Shown: one piece after another, positions 10,650 through 39,656 of the stretch
How the letters are laid out: the number at the start of each line of letters is the position of its first letter
How positions within the stretch are numbered: position 1 is the first letter of the stretch
Source: an uncultured Eubacteriales bacterium
GTDB taxonomy: Bacteria > Bacillota > Clostridia > Lachnospirales > Lachnospiraceae
Length of the DNA: 64,000 nt
Direction of reading: 5' to 3'
Assembly (NCBI GenBank): GCA_949294665.1
Contig: CASFID010000036.1
Location: 18,485-82,484 of the forward strand
Made by a program: the position numbers and the translations under genes
The notes under the pieces: generated by a model
What the model saw: only the letters and a program-made list of their open reading frames with translations
What the model was told of the DNA's origin: nothing
Databases searched by the model: none

Positions 10650-11452
10650 AATAACTCCTTATAGCAACGGTTTCGGTCAAAATCTAATGAGATTTTTTCC
10701 AGTTCTTCAAATGACGTACTGCTTGGTCCCACAGACGGGAGGTCAATACAATTCCCACAGTAGTAAACTCTGCCGCTGGCAAAGAAATAGTTATTCCTGC
10801 CGGAACCGCACTGTCCGCCATACATCGTACAGTCCATACCTCCGCGTCTTACAGGAATCTCTTTTTCCGCTTCGCTCAAGAATCCTCTGTATTCCTGCAG
10901 CGAGATCCCATGCCGGCCGATCATTCTTGAAAAAGTCACCTTTGTCCCAAAGGGCTTGAAAAAGGCGATCACCCTCCCGGCATTCTCCAGGCTCTCCTTT
11001 CCGACTGTGGCGTTAAAAGTGGGGTAATGCCCTGTGATCTTCCTGTAGTATTCTACATTCTCGATCGCCCGGTCAAATGATCCGCATCTGTTCAGATCAT
11101 GCAGTTCCCTGTAGCCGTCTATGGAAAAACCGACATTGATCCCATGATCTTCCAGAAACATCCAGTCTTCAGCGGAAAGTCTTATCGTACCATTCGTTAT
11201 GATATAGACGCTGATATTTGAGGAATCTTCTAAATACTTTATGTAAGACTTCAGCAGCGGCCAGTCCAGAAGACTTTCTCCATTTCCCACAAACCCGATC
11301 TTGAATCTTTTACCGGCATAGTGTTTCACATTATCCAGGATTTCAAACACATCCATATGCTCGGCTTCAATCTGTCCTTTCTCGTGGAAATGACAATACC
11401 GGCAGGCGAGATTGCACCGGTTATTTATCGAAATACAGATCCTGTCGATCAT
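10640..11452 (-). CDS. Radical SAM protein with Cys-rich C-terminus
   Basis: A 270-residue protein. The iron-sulphur motif CNLACRYC (C13, C17, C20) sits near the N-terminus, followed by the radical SAM barrel with a GNGESLLD stretch and NGT/SIDG signatures. The C-terminus holds several cysteines (CTMYGGQCG and YYCGNC), as in SPASM-like auxiliary cluster domains but shorter. It should be an oxygen-sensitive cytoplasmic enzyme using S-adenosylmethionine to make a radical on an unknown substrate. No small peptide precursor gene is visible beside it, which argues against simple RiPP maturation. The ATG overlaps the previous stop in ATGA. Confidence 0.85.
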   Translation of the reverse strand: MIDRICISINNRCNLACRYCHFHEKGQIEAEHMDVFEILDNVKHYAGKRFKIGFVGNGESLLDWPLLKSYIKYLEDSSNISVYIITNGTIRLSAEDWMFLEDHGINVGFSIDGYRELHDLNRCGSFDRAIENVEYYRKITGHYPTFNATVGKESLENAGRVIAFFKPFGTKVTFSRMIGRHGISLQEYRGFLSEAEKEIPVRRGGMDCTMYGGQCGSGRNNYFFASGRVYYCGNCIDLPSVGPSSTSFEELEKISLDFDRNRCYKELLCE

Positions 11453-12795
11453 GACCGTCCCTTCTTTCCTCTCCTCTTCTGTTTTTTGTTGAAGTTGACA
11501 TTCTTCCTTCGCCCGGTCTCTAAAAATTCCTGATATCTGTCTTCGGCAGTGTAACCGTCCCGGTCTACGATCTTCTGGTCTGCGCCAGCTTTAAGGATTA
11601 CGTCTCTGCATTCAAGCCATCCCCAGTAACATGCCTTGATCAGAGCCGTGAATCCGTTACTGTCCTGTTGATTCAGACTGGTCCTTTCATCCGCGCACAG
11701 TTCTTTCACATATCGGATCTTATTCTCCCAGGCAGCGATCATCAGCGGCATATTCCCGTCATTTTTGATCGTCTTACCATTCTTTCTCTTTTGCATGAAT
11801 TTACCTGTATCATACGGATCCCTGCTTCCCACATTCGGATCTGCATTACATTCGTGGAGCAAGAACAGAAACATATCAAAATCATTATTCTGTATTGAAT
11901 GCGAGAGTGGCGGCAGATAATGCTGTCTGCTGTCTCTTCGATCGACATCTGCGCCATGTCTGATCAGCCATTTTATTTTCTCTTTTCTCTGGCGCATCGG
12001 CTTATGCCTGCTTCTGACGACTGAGATAATAAGTGTGTATCCGTTCGCAAGATATGCGTTGATATCTTTCTCATTGGGAATTGTGATTCCGAGCACGTCC
12101 TCTATATCATCGTAAGAATCCGCATAGTATTCATCAAGCTTCTTTATACTGTCAACATCCATCAGATCCTGTTTTGTAACATAATAGTTTTCCAGATACA
12201 GCGATCTTACACGCTCATCTCCACTCAGCCTTGCCGAGAAACCCGCGTCATTCGTTATGACGTCGACCTGACAGTTAAATTCTTCGGCCGCATTTCTCGC
12301 AACATCAACAATCTTACTGTCATTATTTCCAGCCCCGTCATCCGCTTTACAGTCTCTCCTGACAACATTGGGATATTCACCCACACTTTTCAGGATCTGC
12401 CATACCTTAGCTGCCAGATTATTTATATTATGATCCTTGATGTTGTCAAGTTCGTCGATCACAATCTGCGGGACGATCACCATACTGTATTCTTTGCTCA
12501 GTTCATTAATAAGCTGGACATTTTTCAGCAAGGCAGAAGTGTCTGTGACGACAACTCTTTCTCCCCGCAGAAAGAGCTCTTTTTGTTCCGGTGTAAGGCC
12601 GATCGCATCACAATACATCTCCGCATAGTTCAAAACATTTTTATAACTGGTGGGATCACCGACTTTTTCTACTCTGGAAAGCGTAGACTTATTGCAGTGG
12701 AGTATCTCAGCCATATCCGACTGAGACTTGTGATTCCTTTTTCTCAGCTCGATCATTCTCTTTCTCAAAAAATCCTTCCGGATCTGTTCGCTCAT
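11449..12795 (-). CDS. HTH-PIN nuclease-ankyrin repeat protein
   Basis: A 448-residue three-part protein. Residues about 10-60 form a Cro/C1-type helix-turn-helix. Residues about 80-215 form a PIN-domain nuclease with the acidic set D85 (VVTDTSAL), D114/E115 (VIDELD), D159/D164 (NNDSKIVD) and D183 (ITNDAGF). Residues about 255-425 hold ankyrin-like repeats (IKWLIRHGADVD, CNADPNVG, GNMPLMIAAWENK, GFTALIKACYWG). A basic tail follows. PIN domains usually cut RNA; the HTH suggests autoregulation and the ankyrins suggest sensing of a protein. ATG 12795 follows a G-rich ribosome site. It is the first gene of the cassette. Confidence 0.85.
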   Translation of the reverse strand: MSEQIRKDFLRKRMIELRKRNHKSQSDMAEILHCNKSTLSRVEKVGDPTSYKNVLNYAEMYCDAIGLTPEQKELFLRGERVVVTDTSALLKNVQLINELSKEYSMVIVPQIVIDELDNIKDHNINNLAAKVWQILKSVGEYPNVVRRDCKADDGAGNNDSKIVDVARNAAEEFNCQVDVITNDAGFSARLSGDERVRSLYLENYYVTKQDLMDVDSIKKLDEYYADSYDDIEDVLGITIPNEKDINAYLANGYTLIISVVRSRHKPMRQRKEKIKWLIRHGADVDRRDSRQHYLPPLSHSIQNNDFDMFLFLLHECNADPNVGSRDPYDTGKFMQKRKNGKTIKNDGNMPLMIAAWENKIRYVKELCADERTSLNQQDSNGFTALIKACYWGWLECRDVILKAGADQKIVDRDGYTAEDRYQEFLETGRRKNVNFNKKQKRRGKKGRS

Positions 12796-12823
12796 GACAG
12801 GCCCCCTGCACATTTGTCACTAT

Positions 12824-26314: not shown

Positions 26315-26350
26315 GAGAAAGGGGCAAGTGCTATGACTTGTCCCTTTCTC
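26315..26350. terminator. Bidirectional terminator between convergent genes
   Basis: GAGAAAGGGGCAAGT (26315-26329) pairs with ACTTGTCCCTTTCTC (26336-26350), one mismatch, followed by TTTCTATTCT on the plus strand and TGTTCGG on the minus strand. It overlaps the 3' end of the VirD4-like gene, whose stop lies inside the stem. Confidence 0.8.
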
Positions 26351-27677
26351 TTTCTATTCTGTTTTCCTCTGCATAAGGTGTGATCTTGTCGACCAGTTCT
26401 CCCCGGCCCCCTTTTTCGATCAGATAGGCCTTATCTCTCGGCATGAGCAGAACAGTCTCGGCCGTCCTGCTGGAACGCATTCCGATATACTCTGCTGTCT
26501 CGATGTCCTGTCCTCCCAGATACAGGATATGATCACAGTTGTTCAGTATCGTAGCGGCTTCTGCTTTTGAATACAGAGAGTAGAGCTGTGTTATATTCTG
26601 CAGGATCACGCTGACGGAGATATTGCGCGAACGTATCACGGATATCAGTTTATCGAAGTTTTCTATATAAGCATTCGCAGCGAAATCGTCCATGATAAAC
26701 CGGATCGGTATCCGGAGCCGCCCCGTCGGCCGTATGTGGTCCGCATCTTCGCAGAGTATCTGCATTGCCTGTGTATAGAACAGGTTGACCAGTTCATCCG
26801 CGTATCGGTTCGTATCACTGATATTCAGGAACACAGCGCTCTTCTCCCGGCCGATCTTGTGCAGGTTCAAAAGCTTTTCTCTGTCCTCACTGCTGAACAT
26901 CGGAATGACCTCATCAAAGTCAAAGGGCTGAAGCGCCTCGGATACAAACTGCTGGACACATGCCCATGTCCTGTCCGCGTCATAGACTCCGCAGAACATT
27001 TTGTATTTCCTTGCCGCAAAGGACTCCGGATTATCATCGCACCACTGTTCGATCGCCTTTCTTCCCGACGGAACGCTCAACTGGCGGAAAATATCTACGA
27101 CGGAAAGCATATTATGCTCTTCCGGGACCAGCGCTTCCAGCGTAAAGCCGACCATAAAGGCGATCACCGTCTGCGCAGTCTGCCGCCAGAACGGATCTCT
27201 GTCATCCTGTCTGACAGGGCACAGAAGATGCGCCATGGATACAATATCTCTCGTATTGTATGCGCTTCCATTCTTTTTCTCGTTTTGCTTCCTGTTCGGT
27301 TTTTTCCGAATGTATTCCAATGGGTTATATCCCACAGAATATTCCGGATTGATGAAATCAAGCAGGTATACTTTATACCCGGCGGCCGCGAGATCTTTTC
27401 CAAGCCTGTTATAAAGCTGGCCTTTCGTGTCAGTGATGACCATGCTGCCATGACCGCGCCGGATATTGGGGATTACATATCCCCCGGTCTTACCGCTTCC
27501 GGAACAGCCGATGATAAGATCGTTGTTATTCATCCCGGAGCTGATATCATCATCGCTTACATAGTGGCCGGCGGCCAGGCGCCGTCCTTTTTTCATCGAC
27601 TCCGAACGGGATCCAGGCTGTTTCCCGGTTAATACGCTCAGTTTCATCTTTGTGGAGTTCTTAGTCAAATTATTCAT
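26331..27677 (-). CDS. VirD4/TraG-like ATPase without membrane domain
   Basis: A 448-residue protein of the type IV coupling protein superfamily: Walker A GCSGSGKTG (about 58-66), VITDTKGQLY, a DPFWRQTAQT block typical of VirD4/TcpA ATPases, Walker B RFIMDDFAANAYIENFDK and a motif III region SVILQNITQLYSLY. No N-terminal transmembrane helices are present, unlike conjugative coupling proteins of roughly 600 residues. No relaxase, mating-pair or integrase gene is nearby, so a conjugation role is unlikely. It is the last gene of the unit headed by the 128-residue protein and follows clpP by 72 bp. The best-placed ribosome site is distant, so the start is uncertain. Confidence 0.85.
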   Translation of the reverse strand: MNNLTKNSTKMKLSVLTGKQPGSRSESMKKGRRLAAGHYVSDDDISSGMNNNDLIIGCSGSGKTGGYVIPNIRRGHGSMVITDTKGQLYNRLGKDLAAAGYKVYLLDFINPEYSVGYNPLEYIRKKPNRKQNEKKNGSAYNTRDIVSMAHLLCPVRQDDRDPFWRQTAQTVIAFMVGFTLEALVPEEHNMLSVVDIFRQLSVPSGRKAIEQWCDDNPESFAARKYKMFCGVYDADRTWACVQQFVSEALQPFDFDEVIPMFSSEDREKLLNLHKIGREKSAVFLNISDTNRYADELVNLFYTQAMQILCEDADHIRPTGRLRIPIRFIMDDFAANAYIENFDKLISVIRSRNISVSVILQNITQLYSLYSKAEAATILNNCDHILYLGGQDIETAEYIGMRSSRTAETVLLMPRDKAYLIEKGGRGELVDKITPYAEENRIERERDKS

Positions 27678-27749
27678 AGCTGTTCTAATTCTAATTCCTT
27701 TCTGTGAGTGAAATTGACTGTGAAATGTGACGTTGACTGTACTGTTCGA

Positions 27750-28382
27750 TCAAAATGTGGACACGCCGCCCTTCCCTTTGTGGGATCCGTCTGTACAGAG
27801 GGATTGAGAGCCCTCCAGGATCTGTGTCGCCAGTCCTTCTCTGAGGGCCTGTCCGGCATTAAAATATGTATCCTTCTTTGTAAGTTTCAGCACATGCTTT
27901 CTGGACATACCGGTCCTTGAGACGATCACGCCGGCAAGGATATTCCGCAGCTCCATCAGCCTGTCAAGCTGTTCCTGCATCTCAAGAGGCTTCTGAGTTC
28001 CGCTGCCTCCAAGATACGGATCGTGGATCATGATCCTCGAATGAGGCAGGATCATTCGTTCCTCGCCTGCCAGGAACAGGATCGCTCCCATACTGGCTGC
28101 CTGACCAATGCAGACGGTATTTACCTGCGACTGCATCACGCCGATATAGTCGTATATCGCCATACCGCTCATAACGCTTCCTCCCGGACTGCTGATATAC
28201 AGAGTGACAGGCTCCGAAGACCTGCCGTCCAGATACATCAGCTGGCTGATGATCTCCGCTGCGGATTCCTCATTGATCTCTCCTGCCAGAAAGATCTCCC
28301 TGTTTCTGAGCATGGAATCCTGTATTGTAAACGACTGTATCCCCTTGGATGTTTCTTCAATAATATTAGGTGCAGCGAGCAT
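27750..28382 (-). CDS. ClpP-family serine protease (accessory copy)
   Basis: A 210-residue ClpP. The catalytic Ser lies in GQAASMGAI, the His in HSRIMIHDP and the Asp in KKDTYFNAGQAL, so the triad is complete. It is somewhat longer and more divergent than housekeeping ClpP, ending in a short Gly/Lys-rich tail. The ATG follows AAAGGAGGG. It is embedded between an unrecognised protein and a VirD4-like ATPase rather than beside clpX or tig, and a ClpX-like unfoldase gene lies 9 kb upstream in the same block, which suggests an accessory protease dedicated to this locus. Confidence 0.9.
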   Translation of the reverse strand: MLAAPNIIEETSKGIQSFTIQDSMLRNREIFLAGEINEESAAEIISQLMYLDGRSSEPVTLYISSPGGSVMSGMAIYDYIGVMQSQVNTVCIGQAASMGAILFLAGEERMILPHSRIMIHDPYLGGSGTQKPLEMQEQLDRLMELRNILAGVIVSRTGMSRKHVLKLTKKDTYFNAGQALREGLATQILEGSQSLCTDGSHKGKGGVSTF

Positions 28383-28416
28383 GTATAATGCCCTCCTTTC
28401 TTTTACAACAAATTTT

Positions 28417-28968
28417 CTAATTATCTGTGTCCATATCCGCGTCCGGCTGATTGTCCGCCTGACTGCAGGAACACATTTTTGCTACAACGGATTCACGGCT
28501 TAATCTGTACTTGTCCAGCATCGGCTGAAAAGTATCTATGAAGAAGAGCTTTGCCAGTCTTTTCCCTTTGCTTATATCCTGCATATGCTGCTTCTCGTCT
28601 ATGGCTTCAGACTTCTTCGATTCCATACAGTTTCCGTTAATATAGCGCAGGAACTGGCCGATCGTCATGCGTTCGGCCCCCGGAACGGACAGCGTGATCA
28701 TCGAATATATCCTCTTATATCTGGCCGCTCTTTCCGGATCTTTCCCCTTGTTTGTCGCCAGGCACTCTTTGAACATCACAGTGTAGAATTTCTTCAGACT
28801 GATATTCAAAAACAGCGCGGGAACATGTTCCTCCTTCCCGTCGTCTGTACTCCCGAAGATAATATCAGTCAGTACCCGGCTGGCTTCCTCCCGGCTTCGC
28901 ACATGCCTCTCTTTGTACAAACGTGAAGCTGTGTTTTCAGACAATGTTTTTAACGATAACTTTTGCAT
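28417..28968 (-). CDS. Unrecognised protein of the clpP-virD4 unit
   Basis: A 183-residue protein, predicted helical and soluble, with a positively charged first third (TASRLYKERHVRSREEASRVL) and an acidic end (QADNQPDADMDTDN). The ATG at 28968 is chosen because AAAGGAG precedes it by 8 bases; the overlapping upstream ATG at the previous stop lacks one. It lies 34 bp before clpP. I cannot assign a family. The position in a four-gene unit with ClpP suggests an adaptor or substrate, which is inference from context only. Confidence 0.7.
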   Translation of the reverse strand: MQKLSLKTLSENTASRLYKERHVRSREEASRVLTDIIFGSTDDGKEEHVPALFLNISLKKFYTVMFKECLATNKGKDPERAARYKRIYSMITLSVPGAERMTIGQFLRYINGNCMESKKSEAIDEKQHMQDISKGKRLAKLFFIDTFQPMLDKYRLSRESVVAKMCSCSQADNQPDADMDTDN

Positions 28969-28988
28969 TGCAGATCTCCTTTCTCTCA

Positions 28989-29375
28989 TTACATACTGCC
29001 GTCACTTTTCAGATAGCCTACATAGAGAGCCACATACTCTTTGAGAAGCACATCTATAAAGCCCTCTGTCTCCATCTGCTCTCGTCTCTTTGGAATATCC
29101 AGGTCTGCTCTGAGCAGTACCAGAGATTCCGCGTAGCTGAGTTCAGCGATACTCGTACTGCATTTTTCAGGTATCAGCCCGTCTTTGCGGTAAAGGTCAT
29201 CTGGATAGGAAGCGGCTGTAAATCCGGATTCATTCCAACTGGGATGATAGACTTTGCAGAAAGGCATATCCAGCAGGTCTTTTGTAAGTCTCAGGATTGT
29301 TTCCTCATCCTCTATAAATGCAAATGAATGATTATTCCGGAATGTCCTCAGACTGATCTTTTCTCCTTTATACAC
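28989..29375 (-). CDS. Unrecognised small protein, first gene of the clpP-virD4 unit
   Basis: A 128-residue soluble protein starting at GTG 29375 with AAAGGAGG about 12 bases before it. It mixes beta-like segments (HSFAFIEDEETILRLTKDLL) with helices near the C-terminus (YAESLVLLRADLDIPKRREQ). No known motif is seen. It ends 21 bp before the next gene start. Function unknown. Confidence 0.65.
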   Translation of the reverse strand: MYKGEKISLRTFRNNHSFAFIEDEETILRLTKDLLDMPFCKVYHPSWNESGFTAASYPDDLYRKDGLIPEKCSTSIAELSYAESLVLLRADLDIPKRREQMETEGFIDVLLKEYVALYVGYLKSDGSM

Positions 29376-29665
29376 AGCGGGGACACACCTCCTTTCTCCG
29401 TAACGTAATGAACTTAATTTTGTAACTTAATGTACATATATAGTCAGTATTATGTCTGACTCATAATATCTCCCGGGGAGCGCAGCTCCCTTTTACTTTT
29501 TTGTTGTGTTTTGTTTTTTGTTGTGGGTAAATCTGATAATCTTGATTTTTTGCAGAAAAAATCCCTGCCCTTTCTGAAAAGGACAGGGATAGAAGATTTA
29601 TAGTATTTAGAAATTTCCCTGAAATCACGCATAAATCGATATTATTTTTTCAAAAACGCTCATTT
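29376..29665. other. Intergenic region between the two halves of the ClpP/McrBC block
   Basis: This 290-bp gap contains the terminator after the RecQ-like gene (29560-29592), a short GGGAGCGCAGCTCCC hairpin at 29474-29488, and AT-rich sequence before the 128-residue gene where its promoter must lie. No gene is seen. Confidence 0.6.
29560..29592 (-). terminator. Rho-independent terminator after the RecQ-like gene
   Basis: TCCCTGTCCTTTT and AAAGGGCAGGGA pair with one mismatch, then TTTTTTCTG on the minus strand. It separates the ClpX-McrBC-RecQ transcript from the ClpP-VirD4 transcript. Confidence 0.8.
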
Positions 29666-31888
29666 TTAAAGAAAGAATTGAATACCCAGACTGATATTCC
29701 CTTCCTCCCCTCCTGTGTACTCATCTTCATAGAACTTGTATCCGCTGGCACCGTACATCCGGCGCCGCATATAATACTCCAGGATCGTGCAGATCTTTTT
29801 CTCCAGAGCTTCCCGCTTTCTTTTCTTCCTGTAAAGATCATCCGGAAATTCCAGTCCCAGGATCTCATACATGCCCGGCTGTTCTCTTTCTCCCTGCTGC
29901 AGACGGATCCTCGGCTTCCATCCCATCTTCTCCTGAGTGCAGTGTCTTACGATCAGCCGGATCCGCCGCGCCAGGAAATGACGGAGTTTCAGATTCTCTA
30001 TAGAGTTCGGCATCTTGACCGCTTTCTCATTCCTGACAGAGAGCCAGCTCCCCGGGATCTTATAGAACTGGCTGTCTGTCAGCTCTGCATACCGGTAAAG
30101 CGGAGGCGTGTCCGTGATCCTGTATCCGTTCTTTCCCTCTTTCCTGATCGGAAGAAAGGGCCCTCTTAATTCCGTCTGCTCTTTCTCATCCGCGAAGATC
30201 GATCCGAACGGTCCCCGTTTCCTGTTGATATAGATCTCCGTAAGGGCCATACGTTCCAGACTCTGCGCAAACATCGTGCGTTTATCCTGCTTTTCCTCTC
30301 CTGCAGCACCTCGCTCCGGTTTCAATGTCGCGGACGGATCCCCTGACAGGAGCTCCAGGATATTTTTGATATATATCTTGGTCTTTCCGAGAAAATACAG
30401 AGTATAAACCGCATCCGCAACCATCATGTCAAAATAGTCAAGCCTGTTGCTCAGGCAGAATGTGTGCACGAGCGGAGCGCCGTTTTTCCTGTCTATCCTT
30501 ATTTCTTCGTTCACACCCGGGACATAGCATCCTTTCCGTATCTGCTGCGCCATCTTGGTTTCATTCGTGTACAGTTCCCGGATATCCCGCTGCTTTTCCC
30601 GGATTGACTGACGGATTCGTACGCCTTCTTCCAGCAGTTCCCTTTCTGTCTCATTTTCTCCGGGATATCCGCTGAGATGGTCTGACACTCTCTCCTGGAG
30701 CGTACCGGAATCTGCGCCCGCCCCCTCCCTTGCATATTCTGCCATTGCCCGAAAGCGCTTCATCCCCGCCCGAAAAAGAAAATCTGCCGCTTCACTGTCC
30801 AGTCTCTGCAGACTTTCTGTTCTTTTCTGGCCGAGCATCTTCCGGAACAGATCCTCATCCTGAGGCGCATAATACAGAATACACTCTGTACTTTTTCCAT
30901 CCCGGCCGGCGCGGCCGATCTCCTGCCAGTAACTCTCCAGATCTTTCGCCATATGGAAATGGATCACATATCTGATATCTTCCTTGTTTACTCCCATGCC
31001 AAAAGCATTCGTCGCCACCATGACTTTTTTCTGGCCGGACATAAAGGCCTGCATATTCTCTTTTCTGTCGTCCGCCGAAAGTTTGCCGTGATATCTCGCC
31101 GCCGGACACGCTCTGTCATTCAGACATTGATACAGATCGTCAACTGTCTCTGTAGTCGCGCAGTATATGATCCCGGCCTGATCCGCATGGTTCTTCAGAT
31201 ACCGGTACAGATGTTGACGCTTCCTGCCGTCCGTCTTATAACTTCGGACCGAAAGGCGGAGATTCTCCCGACGATGCCCGGTATCGACGCAGAATATATC
31301 AGTAAGGCCCAGAGTCTCCCTCACATCATCCTTCACATACATCGACGCCGTGGCCGTAAATGCTGCGATGGCCGGCCGTTTCCCCACCTGGTCAAGAAAC
31401 TCCTGTATCCTCAGATAATCCGGGCGGAAATCATAGCCCCACAGAGAAATGCAGTGAGCCTCGTCCACAACAAGAAGAGAGAGATCCTCCCGTCTTGCAA
31501 AACGTATAAATTCCAGAGACGCCAGACGCTCCGGAGAAACATAGAGCAGTTTGCACTTTCCGGCATCCACTGCCTGCATGATCCGCTGGCGCTCTCTGGA
31601 TGTGACCGCACTGTTCAGACACGCAGCGCATATCCCGTCTTCCCTCAGATGCCCGACCTGATCCTGCATAAGCGCGATCAGGGGCGATACGACCAGTGTG
31701 ATTCCCGGAAGTTTCATAGCGGGATACTGATAACAGACGGATTTTCCGCTTCCTGTAGGCATGACCGCAAACACATCCCGTCCGGATAAAACTGCCCGGA
31801 TCACCGCCTCCTGCCCTTCCCTGAAACTCTGAAACCAGGGGAAATATGCTCTTATATCTTCCAGCAGACTATCTCTTTTGTGCTCCAC
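29666..31888 (-). CDS. RecQ-like DEAH-box DNA helicase with atypical C-terminus
   Basis: A 740-residue protein. Residues 1-340 contain a complete RecQ helicase core: FREGQEAVIRAVLSGRDVF, MPTGSGKSVCYQYPA (motif I), VDEAHCISLWGYDFRPDY (II and the aromatic-rich loop), FTATAS, and VATNAFGMGVNKEDIRYVIH with HQ-type HFHMAKDLESYWQEIGRAGRDG. The four-cysteine zinc module and HRDC domain of standard RecQ cannot be found; instead about 350 residues of unfamiliar sequence follow. The start is GTG 31888 behind GGGAGGTG. It is the last gene of the ClpX-McrBC unit, so a role in the same pathway is likely. Confidence 0.88.
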   Translation of the reverse strand: MEHKRDSLLEDIRAYFPWFQSFREGQEAVIRAVLSGRDVFAVMPTGSGKSVCYQYPAMKLPGITLVVSPLIALMQDQVGHLREDGICAACLNSAVTSRERQRIMQAVDAGKCKLLYVSPERLASLEFIRFARREDLSLLVVDEAHCISLWGYDFRPDYLRIQEFLDQVGKRPAIAAFTATASMYVKDDVRETLGLTDIFCVDTGHRRENLRLSVRSYKTDGRKRQHLYRYLKNHADQAGIIYCATTETVDDLYQCLNDRACPAARYHGKLSADDRKENMQAFMSGQKKVMVATNAFGMGVNKEDIRYVIHFHMAKDLESYWQEIGRAGRDGKSTECILYYAPQDEDLFRKMLGQKRTESLQRLDSEAADFLFRAGMKRFRAMAEYAREGAGADSGTLQERVSDHLSGYPGENETERELLEEGVRIRQSIREKQRDIRELYTNETKMAQQIRKGCYVPGVNEEIRIDRKNGAPLVHTFCLSNRLDYFDMMVADAVYTLYFLGKTKIYIKNILELLSGDPSATLKPERGAAGEEKQDKRTMFAQSLERMALTEIYINRKRGPFGSIFADEKEQTELRGPFLPIRKEGKNGYRITDTPPLYRYAELTDSQFYKIPGSWLSVRNEKAVKMPNSIENLKLRHFLARRIRLIVRHCTQEKMGWKPRIRLQQGEREQPGMYEILGLEFPDDLYRKKRKREALEKKICTILEYYMRRRMYGASGYKFYEDEYTGGEEGNISLGIQFFL

Positions 31889-31936
31889 GCTCTCACCTCC
31901 CGGTCATTTCTGTTTCTGACGCCGGCATACAGATGA

Positions 31937-33127
31937 TCAGATCCATTTTTTCTGCTTCCTGATATCAGGGGACAGATAGTCGTGAACGATCTTATCCAAC
32001 TGATCACATATCTCTCCAAAATCTGTATTCAGATCCAGAGTATCCAGCCCGATCGTGCTGCCGGTCAGATCGTATCTTATGTCTGACGGAACACTTTCCT
32101 CATCCGTTTTGGCATATAGGAGCATTCCGCTCACTTCGCCGCATTTCCCGGATCTTATTTCCATCTCCTCTTTGTTTTTCACATAGGCGAATATCTGATA
32201 AATATTATCCTCATCAATGCACGGCTTATCGTTTTTGTACGTTGTTTCCCTGTCAATATCGTCTCTATTATCTTTTTCGATCCCGCGATAATACTTGGTG
32301 TCGATGATCAGTATTTTTCTGATGTCCTCCCTGTCGCAGGTCAGTGTGATATCCGTATGCATCCTCGGCAGCCTCCATGCCGCATCTCCGTTTTTCTTCA
32401 TATCGCCCTGCCATTCCATCCACTCATCATCAACAGAGAAGCCATAAGTTGCCTCATACTCCTTCCTGTAATAATTCCGTACAAAGGCCTCGTACACTTT
32501 ACTCATCTTCTTCTGCCAGTATTTCTCAGCCTCCTTTAGAGATGGCAGGCTGAAAGCGCCCCGCTTTATTGTCGGGAGTTCGATCCCATCAAGGATAAAT
32601 CTGCACAATTCGAGCAGCAGCCGGTAATTCCGATTGTTTCTGTCATAGCGGATACGATTCCAGCGGATCGTATTCGGATCGATACGGTCCACATTTTCAA
32701 AATACATCATTTTCTGCTTCAGCCTGCTCTTATACCTCCTGTCCACTTCCGGTCGTTTCAGAAACAGGAAAGCAGTTGTCTTGATGATCTGATTGAAAAG
32801 ATTATTTTCCGAATACTCATCTACCTCACAGGTCACTGTATATCGTCTCTGGATCCGGCTGCGGACTGTTCCGGGCATATCCAGTTTTCCCCGCAGCACT
32901 GTCATCTCTTCCGTACGGCTCCGATATTCCCTGTGGAGCCCCCGTCTCAGCTGGAATGAGATCCTCTGTTCCAGCGCCGAGGCAAACATATCATAAATAT
33001 TCTTAAAGTCCGCTTCCCTCTCCACACTTTTAAACTCCGACAAGGTCAGAGCGTCACAGGCATAGGCCAGCATGTAATAGATGTTTTTTATCCAGATCTT
33101 AGCTATTTTCTTCTTTGTTGAACACAT
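31937..33127 (-). CDS. McrC-like nuclease subunit
   Basis: About 396 residues. The N-terminus IKNIYYMLAYACDAL is the signature of McrC/LlaJI-type subunits. The C-terminal PD-(D/E)xK nuclease shows HTDITLT, then ILIIDTKYY and NIYQIFAYV, which supply the acidic residues and catalytic Lys. With McrB it should form a GTP-driven restriction complex on modified or specific DNA. It overlaps mcrB by 29 bp if ATG 33127 is used; the frame is open further upstream inside mcrB and the family start might also lie slightly downstream, so the start is uncertain. Confidence 0.85.
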   Translation of the reverse strand: MCSTKKKIAKIWIKNIYYMLAYACDALTLSEFKSVEREADFKNIYDMFASALEQRISFQLRRGLHREYRSRTEEMTVLRGKLDMPGTVRSRIQRRYTVTCEVDEYSENNLFNQIIKTTAFLFLKRPEVDRRYKSRLKQKMMYFENVDRIDPNTIRWNRIRYDRNNRNYRLLLELCRFILDGIELPTIKRGAFSLPSLKEAEKYWQKKMSKVYEAFVRNYYRKEYEATYGFSVDDEWMEWQGDMKKNGDAAWRLPRMHTDITLTCDREDIRKILIIDTKYYRGIEKDNRDDIDRETTYKNDKPCIDEDNIYQIFAYVKNKEEMEIRSGKCGEVSGMLLYAKTDEESVPSDIRYDLTGSTIGLDTLDLNTDFGEICDQLDKIVHDYLSPDIRKQKKWI

Positions 33128-35087
33128 CTTCAAATCTGTCTTTCCATATCTTGAATCTGTTATCCCCTTCATCATCGATCCAGTACTCTTTCAGCATGGG
33201 GAAAATGTCATACTTTAATATCGAGCGGATCCATCCGTCCGTACATTTCTCAGGCGTACAGTCGCAAAAATAACTGTGTCCGATGCAGAATCCTGCTCCC
33301 AGCAGCGGATCCTTTCTGATCTTATCATTTAACTTTTTCAGTTCTTTGATCACGCCGTTAAAGTGCTCGTTTGCCAGACTCTGCGCATATTTTTTAAATC
33401 CCTCCGAATCAAATCCCGGTTCAACGTCAAAAAAGCTGAATCTTCTCCTCAGAGCATAATCGAGCATGGCCAGGCTCCGGTCCGCCGTGTTCATCATCCC
33501 TATAATATACAGATTTTCCGGAACGGAGAATTCCTCACCGGTATAGCCCAGCGTGATCTTCTCTCCACGATACTCCTTCTCGATCAGCATGAGAAGCTCC
33601 CCGAATATCTTGCTGATATCGCCGCGGTTGATCTCATCGATAATAAAGAAATACTTATGTTCGGAATCGCCTGCGGCTTTTTTGCAGAACTTGTAAAATA
33701 TGCCTTCTCTAAGCTCAAAACCATCTCCATCCGGCCTGTATCCCATCACAAAGTCCTCATATGTATAATTCTGATGGAACTGGACGAACTGGATCCGTTC
33801 GTCATCTTTCCATCCTGTCATAGAATAGGCAAGCCTTTTGGCCATAAAAGTTTTCCCTACCCCGGGCGGTCCCTGGAGGATAATATTCATTTTCCTTTCC
33901 AGCAGATTTTTTAACTCATCATACTTTTCTGATGCACTGTTTTCCCGGCCGCCATCGCCAATATATATTTTTGAAAGGAAATTGTCTTTTGTATATTTAT
34001 TTTTCAAAGCATAGATCGCTCTGGCCAGTGAGTCTCTCAGCCTGTAAGTGACTTCACCGTCGTTATCTCTTTCAACGTACAGCACCAACTGGATTCCGGA
34101 CTCGCCCTTCTGCCTGGGAGCCGGACTGCCGGCTTTGTGCACGAGCCGCCACATAAGTGATCCTCCCGCAGTGAAAATATTTGTGTTGTTATTAGATTGT
34201 CTTTGATACTCTCTTGTAAGTCCGCCGAACTCCCTGCGCTGCCATTCTTCCCTGCCATGCAGATACATCAGTACATTTATATTATCCTGTGTAAACACAT
34301 CTTCGTCTTCCATTACCCGCAGCCAGTCATCCACAGACAAACTGTCAAAAAAGCGTTTCGTTATCTCGATCTTATCTTCCGAATCCGTAGCATACATGCT
34401 CAATGCTGATACGATATCCGCGGTAAGAATGCGCCGCTCCCTGTCATATTTCCCATAGTCTTCCTGCTTTTCAAGCAATTCGGTCAATTCTTTGTCTCCG
34501 ATGATCTCTTCCCTGATCTCATCATACAGCCGGTAACAGTTTTTTATATTTTCTCTGTCCGCTCCGACCTTGAAACAATACTTTTTCCCAAGCACTTCCG
34601 AAACTGTCTGCGCCTCCCAGAATCTGTAGATATAATACTTTTCCGGGCAATATAGCCACAGATAAATACTGGCTGCTGTCTCTGACGTATAATTCTTGTC
34701 GGACCAGAAATCATCTCCGGGGAAAGTGAGGAAATGACGCATATCTTTCTGAAATCCTTCGATCCGATCCCACATATCATAAGTTTCATCAAACAATCGC
34801 TCAAATACTGTCTTCGCTCTCCCGGGAACATTTCTGATAAACCTCAGTACATTTGTAAAATAATCTTTATTTGTATCCGTCATCTCTGATAAGGCTTCCA
34901 CTTTTCCCGGATCTTCCTTTAATTTATCCAAGAATCCGGAAACATCCGTCTTCCCGTCCTTTTGGAAAAATTTTATGCAGTCCAGTCTGAACTGAATATT
35001 TTTCCAGTGTCCTGCAGCTGTTGAATCATTTTCCAGTTCATCTCTCAGCTCTCTTTTGTATCGCTCCAACGCTTCGTATATCCGCAT
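33099..35087 (-). CDS. McrB-like GTP-dependent AAA+ restriction motor
   Basis: A 662-residue protein. The C-terminal AAA+ domain has Walker A LQGPPGVGKTF, Walker B YFFIIDEINRGD and the McrB-specific MNTADRS motif used for GTP recognition. The N-terminal 380 residues contain an alpha-rich region followed by a segment resembling a specificity domain (QLVLYVERDNDGEVTYRL), which should recognise the DNA target; it is not one I can name. It pairs with the overlapping mcrC gene. The protein is intact. Its unusual operon partners are discussed under findings. Confidence 0.9.
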   Translation of the reverse strand: MRIYEALERYKRELRDELENDSTAAGHWKNIQFRLDCIKFFQKDGKTDVSGFLDKLKEDPGKVEALSEMTDTNKDYFTNVLRFIRNVPGRAKTVFERLFDETYDMWDRIEGFQKDMRHFLTFPGDDFWSDKNYTSETAASIYLWLYCPEKYYIYRFWEAQTVSEVLGKKYCFKVGADRENIKNCYRLYDEIREEIIGDKELTELLEKQEDYGKYDRERRILTADIVSALSMYATDSEDKIEITKRFFDSLSVDDWLRVMEDEDVFTQDNINVLMYLHGREEWQRREFGGLTREYQRQSNNNTNIFTAGGSLMWRLVHKAGSPAPRQKGESGIQLVLYVERDNDGEVTYRLRDSLARAIYALKNKYTKDNFLSKIYIGDGGRENSASEKYDELKNLLERKMNIILQGPPGVGKTFMAKRLAYSMTGWKDDERIQFVQFHQNYTYEDFVMGYRPDGDGFELREGIFYKFCKKAAGDSEHKYFFIIDEINRGDISKIFGELLMLIEKEYRGEKITLGYTGEEFSVPENLYIIGMMNTADRSLAMLDYALRRRFSFFDVEPGFDSEGFKKYAQSLANEHFNGVIKELKKLNDKIRKDPLLGAGFCIGHSYFCDCTPEKCTDGWIRSILKYDIFPMLKEYWIDDEGDNRFKIWKDRFEDVFNKEENS

Positions 35088-35134
35088 TTATCTGTCCTCC
35101 ATATTATCTGTCCGTTCAGTGCAGACGCTCAGAC

Positions 35135-36454
35135 TCACCGCTTTGCACGGGAGAACTCGCGTGCTAATCTTGTTTCGTACTCTTTCTGCAGAGCTTCCAT
35201 ATCTTTCCATATGTTTTCTCCCTCTTCCGGAGTATTGAAATATTTTCTGTATTCGGCAGGGATCAGTTCCAGGCTTTCCGGTTTATCCAGCTGATTGACC
35301 AGATGAAAATTTTCATAAAGTATATTCCCTGACCTCACTCCAAGCTGCCCCTGATATATGTTCAGCGCTTTCTCAAGGTCGGAAAAAAGAATATTCTCCG
35401 GGTTTGTATCGCTGCTCTCATAAACCATGTCCACAATAGAATACGGGCTCCACAGATAAGTATCGTCAATCTGTGCATCCAGATTCAGAAATTTCACGAT
35501 TGCATAACAGCAGCACCGGTTTCCCAGAATATCTTTTACTTTTCTGCGCATTCGGACGTTCCCGTTCCAGCTCTTCAGATAAGCTTTCCCGATGATATAC
35601 AGACCGCTTCCCGAATCATTGTCCACCAGCAGCGGGACAACTGCCGTATCCATTCTGTTTTCACAGGCAAACTGATAAACTTCCTCTATCTCTTCCTTCA
35701 TATCCACATTGCGGGAGACCTGTCGGGGATCTGTGCGATTGATGGCTGAGAGTTTCCGGAAAGGCAGGTCTTTTCTGGAAAAATACAGGTCCAGAAGTCC
35801 CATCGGAATAGTCTTGATCCTGGATCTTTCAAGTTTTATCAGGCGGGGCTTCTCCTCCCTCTCCCACTCCGGACCATACTCACGGTCTGTTTCCCGCGGC
35901 AGCGGGTATCCGGCATTGTACAGAAACTGCGCGGCCTCCGCATAGAGATAGAGATCCATTATCTGCTCCACCAGCCGCTCTGTCCTGTTGTGCCGGTAGG
36001 TTTTTTCCATCTGTTCCAATTCTTCCAGGACGGGCTGTTTTCTTCTTTTTCCCACTTTCGCTTCATTGGCCAGACGTCTCATCTCCTGTATAAAAGCCCT
36101 TGTTCTCCCGGCTCTGCCCTCCGGATCACGCTGCCTTCGCATGACTTCATACTCTGCAAGGAAATCGTAATACAGACAGAGGATCTCTATCGCCGGCTGA
36201 TGCCCTGCAGGCCGCCGCCCCGACTTAGACGCGCTTTCCGCGGATATCTTTCGTCCTTTCTCTTCTATGGGAGGCGTCGGAGGACCGTAAACCGCCGTTT
36301 TCTCATATACCTGTTTCCTTTTTCTCACCGTCTCATGATTTCTCTTTTCTTCCCGAAAATAGCTGCACAATACGGAATGGCCTTCATAAAACATTACCCC
36401 GCTCCGCAAATCTTCAAAAAACCCTTCATGAAAGTGGCTGTAACTATCCTTCAC
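35135..36454 (-). CDS. Unrecognised 439-residue protein, McrBC block
   Basis: Starts at GTG 36454 with AGGAG 8 bases before, overlapping the end of the previous gene by 11 bp, so translation is coupled. The first 200 residues are highly charged and helical (EVMRRQRDPEGRAGRTRAFI), the second half is mixed. A stretch DLYFSRKDLPFRKLSAINRT followed by VVPLLVDNDSGSGLYIIGKAY resembles the ligand-binding half of WYL-type regulators in outline only. No catalytic motif is seen. I do not assign a family; its coupling to the upstream 355-residue gene suggests that the two act together. Confidence 0.75.
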   Translation of the reverse strand: MKDSYSHFHEGFFEDLRSGVMFYEGHSVLCSYFREEKRNHETVRKRKQVYEKTAVYGPPTPPIEEKGRKISAESASKSGRRPAGHQPAIEILCLYYDFLAEYEVMRRQRDPEGRAGRTRAFIQEMRRLANEAKVGKRRKQPVLEELEQMEKTYRHNRTERLVEQIMDLYLYAEAAQFLYNAGYPLPRETDREYGPEWEREEKPRLIKLERSRIKTIPMGLLDLYFSRKDLPFRKLSAINRTDPRQVSRNVDMKEEIEEVYQFACENRMDTAVVPLLVDNDSGSGLYIIGKAYLKSWNGNVRMRRKVKDILGNRCCCYAIVKFLNLDAQIDDTYLWSPYSIVDMVYESSDTNPENILFSDLEKALNIYQGQLGVRSGNILYENFHLVNQLDKPESLELIPAEYRKYFNTPEEGENIWKDMEALQKEYETRLAREFSRAKR

Positions 36455-37511
36455 AAGACTTTCTCCTATCTTCCACCGCCGATTTTTTCAGCTGTTTTTC
36501 TGCTCTCCTGAGCAGCGTCAGCGCAGTAAAATATGTGTTGTCATCCTGCAGATGGGCAATCCCTCTCTTTTCGGAAAATAATTGAACCGCAGCTTTTACA
36601 TACTCCCCCAGGCTGGCTGCAATGTGGATCCTGTCGAGATCCTCTGAAGTTAATCCTTCAATATCAACATCGCAGTGCGGATCATATTTGTCAGACCGGA
36701 ATGAGAGATAGCTTTCCACAAACTTTTCCGGCTCAACAAACTGATTTTTTATCTGTTCCGCCCATCTCTGCACCTCTTCTGAAAGAAATATCCCCTCCCA
36801 GAATTCATGAAAAAATTCTGACGGAGTGCAGTCCATCTCTTCCATCTCTCCACGTATCTCCCGGGGAAGATAATGAAAATACTCCCTTTGAAGTTCCTCC
36901 GGATAAAGAGCTGACAGAGCCTTTCCGGTAAGGATATGGACCAGCCAGGAAGCCGGCCGGTATATTCCTTTCATATCTGCATAATCATTTCCGGACGCCT
37001 CCGATAACGCCTCCTGGACATACAGTTCTTCCGGACTCTCATAGTGATCGCCGGAATACCACAGGAAATCGTGGAATGTCTGCGTTGCCCCGGATATGTC
37101 CTTTCCCTCCGTGTCGCAAAGTGCGTCCATCTCGGAAATCCGGATAGCACAATAGAGAAAATTTCTGAAAAAGGTTTCCACATCCCGACTGAATTCAGGA
37201 TAAAAGGTTAATTCCTCCTCCGCCTCCTCATCAGACTTTCCTGATTTCTCAAGCTTTTGCCGGTACTCTTCTCTTTCATATTTCGAGTAAATGATGGCAT
37301 ATTCTGTCAGTTCATCGATAAACTCGCATGTTTTCTTTTCGCTGTACATACCGTCTTCGTCTCTCACATACGGGAGAATACTCTCGTATTCCCCCGTAAG
37401 TCCGGCCCTGTACTGCTCCAGCTCTTCCAGAAAAAGTTTCTCCCGAAACTTTAAAAGAGCAATATCTTCTGTTTCTTTCCGGTGTGTTTTTCTATATTCT
37501 TCCTTTTTCAT
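36444..37511 (-). CDS. Unrecognised 355-residue acidic protein, McrBC block
   Basis: A soluble, mostly helical and very acidic protein (for example KSDEEAEEELTFYPEFSRDVE) with several aromatic-rich helices (ETFFRNFLYCAIRISEMDAL, REYFHYLPREIRGEMEEMD). It begins at ATG 37511, 36 bp after the ClpX-like gene, and overlaps the following gene. The ribosome site is weak (AAGGGAACG about 10 bases away). No known fold or motif could be recognised. Its acidity would suit a DNA mimic or an adaptor, but that is speculation. Confidence 0.72.
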   Translation of the reverse strand: MKKEEYRKTHRKETEDIALLKFREKLFLEELEQYRAGLTGEYESILPYVRDEDGMYSEKKTCEFIDELTEYAIIYSKYEREEYRQKLEKSGKSDEEAEEELTFYPEFSRDVETFFRNFLYCAIRISEMDALCDTEGKDISGATQTFHDFLWYSGDHYESPEELYVQEALSEASGNDYADMKGIYRPASWLVHILTGKALSALYPEELQREYFHYLPREIRGEMEEMDCTPSEFFHEFWEGIFLSEEVQRWAEQIKNQFVEPEKFVESYLSFRSDKYDPHCDVDIEGLTSEDLDRIHIAASLGEYVKAAVQLFSEKRGIAHLQDDNTYFTALTLLRRAEKQLKKSAVEDRRKSCEG

Positions 37512-37546
37512 ATTTCAAATCGTTCCCTTTCTACATGTCAAGTATA

Positions 37547-38965
37547 TCACATCCTTTCTTCCAAAGAAACACGGTCATTCAACCAGTATTCCTTCCTGTC
37601 ACAGTCGCCAAACATCTCCTCGTCCAGATATTCCTGGAGACGGCTCTGGAGATATCTTACACCAAATCCCGTTTCCGCGGCCTCCGCGGCCAGCCGCTTT
37701 TCCATTTCTCCGTTCAGATGGATCGTAACTCCATACTGCTTCTCCAGAGTGTGGACCGGTGAAATATACTCATCCCGCAGAATGGACCGAAAATCATTCT
37801 CCGTCATGGGATGGAGCTGTACGATCTGGTGGATCCGTCCGGCGATCTCCTGTCGGATCCCCGCATAGGCCACCAGATCTTGCGGGGTGATCGTATCCAG
37901 ATATTGAAGATTGCTGTCCGCCTTCTGACAGTCTCTCCCGAATCCGATCGTCTCTTTCTCTTCATATGCAGTTTTTTCCTTTACCAGTCTTTCAAAACTC
38001 CCGCAGAATACAAAACTGATACGGGAGCTGTCGAATTCAAGAGCATCCTTTTCTTTATCCTTCGGGAAGCACATCCGGGCCCCCTCGATCATTTTTAAAA
38101 GTTCGCTCTGACTCGCCGTAGCGTAATTCGTCCCGCCGGATCCGATCTTCGGTTCGCAGAATTTATCAAATTCGTCAAACACGATAATAGAACGTTCTAT
38201 CTCATCACGGCTCATGCCCTGAAAGATATCCTGGAGCTTAAAGCTGCCGCTCCATCCCTGCATCGTGATGAACGTGCTGTCGATGATACGGACAGGGGGA
38301 TAAACTTTCTGGAGAGTTCTCCATATCTCTGTTTTTCCGCAGCCGGTAGGCCCTACAAAGAGGAGATTCCTCTTCCTTCCTCTTATATGATTGTACAGAA
38401 GGAGTGACGCCGCCCTCACCGCCTCTTCCTGCCCGTATATCCTCGGGGAAAGATATCTGTAGATCATCCGGGGACTTGTCGCCAGATTCGGATCGAATGC
38501 TTTCGTCGCCTCGTCTTCTTCAATACGGGAGGCCTTTGGAAAACTGTCCGCATGCTGTCTTTTGTTTTCCCGGGAAAATCCATATATATCCGGTATCATA
38601 TTCCCGTGCGGATCTCTCAGCGGTATCTTCTCTTCCGCCGTGAATCCCCCGTGAGAAGCAGCATAGCGGTCGGCAAGAATCTCTGCAAGAGAGCGGATAC
38701 CCTTATCGTCCATCTTCAATTCAGATATAAAGTTGATCAGAAGCTGTCCGGCCGTTTTTGACGGCTCCTTCCCCCAGGGAGCAGAGAGTTCCTCCGCCTC
38801 AGCCAGGAGCTCATTATACTCATCGTCGTCAATATCATTGTACGTTCCTTCTTTGGCGTGCTCGCAAAACAGGACGCAGGGATTCTGATGTCTGACGCTG
38901 TCTCTTTGTTCAGAAACTTCTTTTACATATTTTTCAACCCACTTTAAACACATTGATCTTCTCAT
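37547..38965 (-). CDS. ClpX-like AAA+ unfoldase without zinc-binding domain
   Basis: A 472-residue protein. The first 150 residues are unfamiliar and lack the ClpX zinc finger. The AAA+ domain has Walker A FVGPTGCGKTE, Walker B SIIVFDEFDKF and a C-terminal lid (TGFGVRYLQSRLQEYLDEEM). An IGFG tetrapeptide (in KETIGFGRD) lies between Walker B and sensor regions, where ClpX carries its IGF loop for docking to ClpP. It is the first gene of the McrBC unit; ATG 38965 follows AAAGGAAGG. I infer a locus-specific unfoldase for the ClpP encoded at 27750. Confidence 0.85.
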   Translation of the reverse strand: MRRSMCLKWVEKYVKEVSEQRDSVRHQNPCVLFCEHAKEGTYNDIDDDEYNELLAEAEELSAPWGKEPSKTAGQLLINFISELKMDDKGIRSLAEILADRYAASHGGFTAEEKIPLRDPHGNMIPDIYGFSRENKRQHADSFPKASRIEEDEATKAFDPNLATSPRMIYRYLSPRIYGQEEAVRAASLLLYNHIRGRKRNLLFVGPTGCGKTEIWRTLQKVYPPVRIIDSTFITMQGWSGSFKLQDIFQGMSRDEIERSIIVFDEFDKFCEPKIGSGGTNYATASQSELLKMIEGARMCFPKDKEKDALEFDSSRISFVFCGSFERLVKEKTAYEEKETIGFGRDCQKADSNLQYLDTITPQDLVAYAGIRQEIAGRIHQIVQLHPMTENDFRSILRDEYISPVHTLEKQYGVTIHLNGEMEKRLAAEAAETGFGVRYLQSRLQEYLDEEMFGDCDRKEYWLNDRVSLEERM

Positions 38966-39135: not shown

Positions 39136-39179
39136 GTATAGCAACGGATATAGACAAAATGCGCAAACGGAGGTATTTT

Positions 39180-39656
39180 ATGAAATCTTTATTGCTGACT
39201 TCTCTCACTCATCCATGGAAATTCATATGGCGCTATATCGTTTTGGCATGTATTGTTTTTCCTCTCATTTTTACACTTTCAGGTCTGATTTCCTCATTTG
39301 ATTCAAGTCTCGGCACGGTCTTCTATGTACTTATAATAATACCCACACTGTTTTGGGTGCGCAGCAACGTACGTTCTGAAGAAGAAGCGCGTATACGTGA
39401 GCTGAATAAATCACCAGAAGAAAAAGAACGGGAAAGACAAGAGAAAAAGAAACAGGCACAATTCTGGGCAAGACATTTCGCATACCGTGCGGCTCAGAGA
39501 CACTACGAGGAACAACAGGCAGAATATGAACGCCAGCAACGAGCAAGGAGTAACGTCATGTATTACGAAACACAGGCAAGATGGGCGGAAAAAGAAGGAA
39601 ACTATTCAGCCGCTGAGGAATACCGGCGGGAAGCCGATTTATGGAAATATCTTTAA
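39180..39656 (+). CDS. Membrane protein with charged coiled-coil tail
   Basis: A 158-residue protein. Two hydrophobic segments (about 14-36 and 42-58) near the N-terminus are followed by a long Glu/Arg/Gln-rich helix (SPEEKEREREQ-type repeats to the C-terminus), likely a cytoplasmic coiled coil. ATG 39180 follows CGGAGG by six bases. It is divergent from the ClpX-McrBC block and a single-gene unit with its own promoter. Function unknown. Confidence 0.75.
   Translation: MKSLLLTSLTHPWKFIWRYIVLACIVFPLIFTLSGLISSFDSSLGTVFYVLIIIPTLFWVRSNVRSEEEARIRELNKSPEEKERERQEKKKQAQFWARHFAYRAAQRHYEEQQAEYERQQRARSNVMYYETQARWAEKEGNYSAAEEYRREADLWKYL

Follow-up and report, generated by a model that had tools for sequence, protein, structure and literature searches.

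ClpP is regarded as a peptidase served by rings of the Clp/Hsp100 type, VirD4-type rings pump DNA or protein–DNA cargo, and in defence pumps of the HerA/FtsK type a hexameric pump stands beside an effector enzyme. We analysed a block of ten genes (g1 to g10, numbered from its upstream end) in a 64,000-nucleotide stretch of a Mediterraneibacter-like genome of the family Lachnospiraceae (G000:C36:18485-82484; this whole stretch is called the window below), where a ClpP gene and a gene for a VirD4-like ATPase lie next to those of a ClpX-like protein, an McrBC pair and a RecQ-like helicase. As in the HerA/FtsK-type systems a pump stands beside an effector, but here the neighbour is a ClpP peptidase and the pump comes from the VirD4 branch. 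Connections between Clp proteolysis and conflict systems have been described: ClpXP destroys HsdR of type I enzymes in restriction alleviation (PMC12707154), in the CmdTAC system it is ClpP that breaks down the antitoxin CmdA (PMC11618068), and Clp-like proteases are mentioned in another conflict system (PMC7159879), in a paper from which the word VirD4 is absent. The first of these has a Clp protease and a DNA motor-nuclease in common with the block, but it uses the housekeeping ClpXP, whereas the Clp genes here adjoin the restriction genes. McrBC type IV restriction systems, including the CoCoNuTs (PMC11090510), share the McrB motor and the McrC nuclease; the block adds Clp, RecQ and VirD4 genes, and none of these three words occurs in the main text of the CoCoNuT census. 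Block-related terms have no occurrence in PMC12839542, and a literature search limited to openly licensed papers, without bioRxiv preprints, turned up no recognisable account of a VirD4-like ATPase paired with ClpP or of private Clp genes alongside McrBC; such an absence is weak evidence, and within that scope the claim of the original prediction that the combination is unpublished stands. We read the block tentatively, at somewhat under even confidence, as a composite anti-invader locus of separable modules around a private ClpP that would be served by two motors.

The most recurrent part of the block is the pair formed by g9 (27750..28382, minus strand), a non-canonical ClpP with a Ser-His-Asp triad (CLP_protease, 7.5e-50), and g10 (26331..27677, minus strand), a VirD4-like ATPase with the Walker B motif FIMDDFA. 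The latter matches T4SS-DNA_transf (8.4e-40) and the CD1115 conjugal model NF045973 (272 bits, cut-off 250), and it has the Pfam domains T4SS-DNA_transf and TraG-D_C in common with VirD4/TraG coupling proteins of the CD1115 family. Homologues were picked by likeness to g10 alone, regardless of ClpP, and every listed place was fetched. VirD4 proteins of this kind were found at 9 places in 6 of 58 genomes of the genus (E ≤ 1e-60), in 5 of 250 genomes of the family, one per genus (E ≤ 1e-70), and in 8 of 392 genomes of the order (E ≤ 1e-65), all three counts including the host genome and repeats. At 18 of the 20 genome loci outside the window a ClpP gene lies directly upstream of VirD4 on the same strand, and the stop-to-stop frames of the two either overlap or are at most 17 bases apart; the two exceptions are the blocks of genomes G302 and G264 described below, in which ClpP stands elsewhere within the same block. 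Because six of these 18 stand-alone pairs are closely related within one genus, each with an RNase H-like gene behind it (by eye; Pfam-checked in one of them, L111, with RNase_H at 8e-42), the independent cases number about a dozen. The catalytic triad is kept in 19 of 20 ClpP rows, the exception being G598 (L140:7104-7763), where Cys and Ala replace the triad His and Asp next to a VirD4 with intact motifs, and Walker A and DDFA are present in all 21 VirD4 rows. On viral contigs the ClpP-linked VirD4 profile found 4 loci, L157 with ClpP upstream and L158 (36%), L159 and L160 without a ClpP match.

From the conjugative coupling proteins the g10 kind differs in several ways, as judged against five controls taken from the best plasmid matches of g10. 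It is shorter (395–454 amino acids in 15 rows versus 589–620 in the controls), a hydropathy rule predicts a membrane segment in none of these 15 rows versus one or two segments in all five controls, and it carries DDFA where 4 of the 5 controls have DEFA. A tree separates ClpP-linked from conjugative rows by a 100/100 branch, with only five conjugative rows. Moreover, besides the adjoining ClpP, the g10 kind stands apart from queried transfer genes: queries for relaxase, MobC, PcfB, PrgI, VirB4 and VirB6 had no hit at E ≤ 1e-5 either in the window or in the module stretches, which amount to 357 kb with some overlap. These queries, drawn from four of the five control loci, detected L153–L156 beyond their self-matches (L153 by PcfB only), while for L152 no queries but its own gave a match and MobC gave a self-match alone, so that distant transfer genes could be missed. 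The missing membrane segment, the missing transfer genes, the kept motor motifs and the fixed ClpP neighbour together suggest that cargo goes to ClpP and not across a membrane.

The host genome has four ClpP-like genes, namely a canonical one side by side with clpX at G000:C2, that of the window, one at C46, and one at C73 that precedes a second VirD4. This second ClpP-VirD4 pair (L110:9768-12097, G000:C73) is followed by an RNase H-like gene and has kin pairs in five other genomes of the genus. With a canonical pair elsewhere in the genome, the ClpP and the ClpX-like protein of the block are extra copies; the canonical ClpP and ClpX are 36% and 30% identical to them. To that extent the private ClpXP pair of the original prediction holds, but the usual partner of this ClpP is VirD4 and not the ClpX-like protein: a search of the 18 genome loci with a stand-alone ClpP-VirD4 pair did not find the ClpX-like protein (E ≤ 1e-10).

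All ten genes recur in two further Candidatus Mediterraneibacter species. In G302 (DWYB01000069.1, Candidatus M. surreyensis) they lie on one contig in the order g1, g2, g3, VirD4, inserted genes, McrB, McrC, RecQ, g7, g8 and ClpP, so that the position of VirD4 within the block differs between species, and in G264 (Candidatus M. intestinigallinarum) they are split over two contigs, the ends of which carry McrC and McrB, the latter cut short there. These proteins are 62–83% identical to those of the window. Because the flanks have no synteny with those of the window within 7 kb (two 29% matches are to common transporter types), the ten-gene set occupies at least two chromosomal sites, and because G302 and G264 share their site and are near copies, we count two sites and not three. 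Hence the ten-gene block is no accident of one genome. Inside the G302 block, DuOB and DUF488 genes lie on the opposite strand (L041:14787-16510).

In the genus, g1 is found in 5 of 58 genomes (E ≤ 1e-28, own included) and ClpP-VirD4 in 6, with both in 4 (hypergeometric 1.7e-4, or 1.3e-3 with the host genome excluded, kinship ignored). The claim of one modular system survives only in part, because the g1-g2-g3 genes and the ClpP-VirD4 pair are usually apart outside the genus, although all ten genes stand together in two more species at another site. As one fixed system the two units do not hold: at 6 of 9 loci with g1, g2 and g3 the fetched stretch has no match to either ClpP or VirD4 (E ≤ 1e-3), and the 18 stand-alone pairs lack the ClpX-like protein. 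By its distribution the block is a set of separable modules with some tendency to meet, joined into one locus in Mediterraneibacter. The same distribution could arise if McrBC-RecQ, ClpX-g2-g3 and ClpP-VirD4 were independent and shared an accessory site by defence-island clustering, with no joint action. This is possible but rather unlikely in our judgement: the separation of the modules in most genomes, the shifting place of VirD4 and the additional DUF488 and DuOB genes of G302 agree with it, whereas the joint occurrence of all ten genes in three species, of which two have near copies, at two unrelated sites does not, nor does the recurrence of RecQ, g7 and g8 as a set in G253, or of RecQ, g7, g8, ClpP and VirD4 in G622, which belongs to another genus.

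The helicase g6 (29666..31888, minus strand) has the superfamily 2 RecQ helicase core (TIGR00614, 371 bits, cut-off 219.8) and a divergent C-terminal half; Pfam matched neither an RQC nor an HRDC domain in the protein up to E 1. Among the 17 of 22 loci whose sequence extends more than 2.1 kb upstream (it is shorter in five), a RecQ-like gene lies upstream of ClpP on the same strand in 6, the window, G302 and G264 included, and on the other strand in one further locus; in G508 and G013, where the match scores 249 and 437 bits, the gene may simply be an ordinary RecQ. Between helicase and ClpP stand g7 (28989..29375, minus strand), an unnamed protein of 128 amino acids, and g8 (28417..28989, minus strand), an unnamed protein of 190 amino acids directly upstream of ClpP. 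Profiles of both level off at six members each, in the window, G302, G264 and G253 and twice in G622. In both G622 copies the relatives of g7 and g8 precede ClpP, and one copy has a RecQ-like gene upstream that is 48% identical to g6; in G253, RecQ, g7 and g8 lie together to the end of a 5.6 kb contig that carries neither McrBC nor g1. Close g6 homologues (E ≤ 1e-160) and g8 homologues are found in one and the same set of 4 among the 58 genus genomes, with the host genome counted (hypergeometric 2.4e-6, ignoring kinship). Other small genes before ClpP were suspected to be diverged relatives of g7 and g8 and were not recruited by the profiles. Two more small proteins do link the two kinds of locus as judged by sequence likeness: one (L046:5943-6305, L111:12310-12657) stands just behind g3 in L046–L048 and downstream of ClpP-VirD4 in four genomes (53–58% identity), and the second follows g1 in L050 and precedes ClpP in G129 (29%, 2.5e-11).

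The RecQ-like neighbour (6 of 17 loci), the RNase H-like gene behind the six genus paralogues (by eye; Pfam in L111) and the many neighbours that look like housekeeping genes would also fit a role in chromosomal maintenance, in which ClpP-VirD4 with RecQ or RNase H clears stalled protein–DNA or RNA–DNA structures and has no special anti-invader role. We consider this improbable, as the VirD4 distribution is patchy (5 of 250 family and 8 of 392 order genomes, own included) and the lineage of the window associates the pair with McrBC.

At the other end of the block, g1 (37547..38965, minus strand, 472 amino acids) is an AAA+ ATPase with a ClpX-type core (PDB ClpX 6sfw, 2.6e-22 over residues 158–454), and it matches NF003745 at 4e-31 but with 108 bits against a cut-off of 359. 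It has the Walker A motif GPTGCGKT, GWSG at what we take to be the position of the ClpX pore loop, and an IGF loop, the element by which ClpX docks on ClpP; it has neither the Cys4 zinc-binding motif nor RKH. The block thus shares with ClpXP a ClpX-type AAA+ motor that bears Walker motifs and an IGF-type loop, as well as a ClpP with a full triad, but g1 has no Cys4 motif, g2 and g3 stand behind it, and the canonical pair lies elsewhere in the genome. By the same script, Cys4 is found in 22 of 23 canonical ClpX candidates and, among the 30 rows of the g1 set, in L036 alone, a row that groups with canonical ClpX. The absence of RKH is a weak difference, since it is present in only 13 of the 23 canonical candidates and missing in 10, and Cys4 is therefore the sole clear one. 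An IGF-type tripeptide was scored in 27 of the 30 rows, with L034, L059 and the fragment L063 as exceptions (L047 was scored as IFF, and its alignment reads IGF); the canonical candidates were selected for having such a loop and cannot serve as a control here. In a tree of 27 g1-set rows and 15 of the 23 canonical candidates, 25 of the 27 group together, and L036 and L064 fall with the canonical rows; L055, L061 and L063 were left out as incomplete, L034 has a broken or shifted frame, and long branches leave the deep order unsure.

Relatives of g1 lie at 24 loci in a scan of one genome per species, and in nine loci (the window and L041–L048) g1, g2 and g3 follow each other in that order. Neither g2 nor g3 was seen at 16 other loci and six further stretches with g1 relatives (E ≤ 1e-3; ten also by profile), where in L049, L061 and L032 the sequence stops just past g1, which limits the negative there. 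In the window, g2 (36444..37511, minus strand, 355 amino acids) is predicted to be all-alpha and has an AlphaFold model of pLDDT 73.7, and g3 (35135..36454, minus strand, 439 amino acids) has a model of pLDDT 61.0. The sequence profile of g2 matched nothing in the PDB, and that of g3 gave two chance-level matches only (E 0.45 and 0.71). Two described systems were compared with the block and rejected. The resemblance of g1 to DolB of Dodola (PADLOC, 2.9e-11) does not make the block a Dodola system, since its partner DolA was not found beside g1; the DolA model was unmatched by all ten proteins (PADLOC; for the RecQ-like protein, among the best 25 of 50 matches). A Dpd system was rejected at 200 bits for the DpdF model NF041063, against a cut-off of 550.

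Around relatives of the triad genes several other arrangements were seen. A distant ClpX-like relative (L031:9291-14762) adjoins genes that look, by eye, like a protein kinase and a PP2C phosphatase, and kinase-like genes related to these also lie near ClpP-VirD4 in L141. An AAA+ protein, a small membrane-type protein and a Lon protease (Pfam) lie at L043:13883-18039, and beside loci of this type stand g1-g2-g3 (G277, G284) and RecQ-g7-g8 (G253). Judged by best E-value, 44 of the 58 genomes of the genus have this AAA+ protein (AAA26, L043:13883-15367) complete or almost complete; it was therefore rejected as a block member and taken as a host locus beside which modules insert.

Behind g3 lie the restriction genes, side by side: g4 (33099..35087, minus strand), an McrB-like motor (AAA_5, 4.1e-25) whose motor part matches the solved Escherichia coli McrB 6hz4 at 2.4e-84 over residues 395–640 and whose residues 1–348 have no match in Pfam, PADLOC or NCBIfam, and g5 (31937..33175, minus strand), an McrC-like nuclease subunit (PF10117, 1.1e-30; NF007277, 2.8e-87, 293 bits against a cut-off of 338). 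The association of the ClpX-like protein with McrB, which had been put forward for a neighbourhood survey, was seen in part: McrB relatives lie no more than 5 kb from g3 at 4 of the 9 triad loci (window, L041, L045 and L042, the last with McrBC on the opposite strand and about 45% identical), and neither McrB nor McrC is in the fetched stretch of the other 5. These four loci, in three arrangements, would agree with a proteolytic restraint by analogy with the destruction of HsdR by ClpXP (PMC12707154), in which the ClpX-like protein and ClpP of the block would break down McrC, McrB or the helicase as long as the cell is uninfected and let them act on infection. The five loci without McrB or McrC, and the failure to see either gene at the 18 genome loci with a stand-alone ClpP-VirD4 pair (E ≤ 1e-10), make such an arrangement a slim prospect. 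Slimmer by far is the chance that VirD4 is the leftover coupling protein of an integrative conjugative element: it passes the CD1115 conjugal model (272 versus 250 bits), but the queried transfer genes were not found in the window or the 357 kb of module stretches, on which we judge the remnant unlikely, motor motifs are kept in 21 of 21 rows, and the 100/100 branch parts the ClpP-linked from the (only five) conjugative rows.

Several results weigh against a composite anti-invader locus. Phage and plasmid records gave no match to g3 or g8, viral contigs gave none to g3, and the best plasmid and phage matches of g10, among those listed, are at most 33.3% identical. The PADLOC matches here are to motor domains, and PADLOC has no curated cut-off; the models of g2 and g3 have no PDB fold match at E ≤ 0.001. 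Of 391 genomes of the order, own excluded, 6 have a g1-like protein, 7 a VirD4 of the g10 kind and only 2 both (hypergeometric 4.0e-3, kinship ignored), and the triad and the pair are usually apart outside the genus. The neighbours of the stand-alone pairs are by eye mostly housekeeping or unnamed genes, and in one locus (L138:7320-12000) ClpP-VirD4 is followed by a GrpE-like gene (Pfam, 2.7e-14) and a DnaK-like gene (by eye), so that stress control fits there as well as defence. On viral contigs the ClpP-linked VirD4 profile found 4 loci, L157 with ClpP upstream and L158 (36%), L159 and L160 without a ClpP match.

If the composite anti-invader reading is nevertheless followed, its core would be the ClpP-VirD4 pair, with a soluble pump of the VirD4 kind (a type IV coupling protein) cut loose from conjugation, which would touch ClpP and hand captured protein or protein–DNA substrates to it, while g7 and g8 might act as substrate adaptors or brakes. 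In this genus a second motor would have been added, the ClpX-like unfoldase with its companions g2 and g3, which may dock via its IGF-type loop on the private or the housekeeping ClpP. McrBC would cut DNA (modified DNA in known cases) and the RecQ-like helicase would open it, and the presence of these genes suggests a nucleic-acid defence setting; that the block genes act jointly, and for defence, is what we infer. A bolder version, which we hold to be doubtful, would make ClpP-VirD4 a new energy-dependent protease class, with ClpP fed by a coupling-protein pump in place of a Clp/Hsp100 AAA+ ring. The soluble VirD4 would then be a decoy that takes the protein–DNA cargo of coupling proteins or phage motors (relaxase–DNA, pilot or replication proteins) to destruction by ClpP, and McrBC and RecQ would attack the remaining DNA.

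The layout of the locus agrees with the original prediction in its main points: the ten open reading frames were confirmed at their coordinates, all on the minus strand in two adjacent units, the ClpX-like, ClpP, McrB, McrC, RecQ-like and VirD4-like parts were borne out by family scans, and the four proteins without a name (g2, g3, g7 and g8) have no match at E < 0.02 in Pfam, PADLOC, NCBIfam or PHROGs. A terminator-like hairpin of 13 pairs (29561..29590, minus strand; a pattern match only) parts the six genes on the helicase side from the last four, and because the scan gave 21 such patterns versus 11.8 in shuffles it is a hint only. Upstream of g1, on the plus strand, lies g0 (39159..39656), a divergent small membrane-type protein and tentative block member, relatives of which precede g1 in L043 and, with 33% identity, in L044, and whose C-terminal motif recurs in a 64-amino-acid frame after VirD4 in L041 and L045. 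Ten flank proteins that were scanned are chiefly metabolic or housekeeping, the G+C of the block (0.43–0.52 per kb) is inside the range of the window, and a tRNA search of the window found none. A protein with PIN and ankyrin domains is encoded at window positions 11449-12813. The host genome has 3.59 Mb in 75 contigs, with a completeness of 95.9% and a contamination of 5.05%; many of the compared genomes are metagenome assemblies, and all evidence is comparative.

The recurrence of a tight ClpP-VirD4 pair without detectable conjugation genes means that another motor family may partner ClpP, and with only two genes the pair is a compact case for testing this. Should the block prove defensive, a single locus in gut bacteria would combine proteolysis with type IV restriction and the unwinding of DNA. 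Of all its parts the ClpP-VirD4 pair is the most valuable, and it extends beyond the block.

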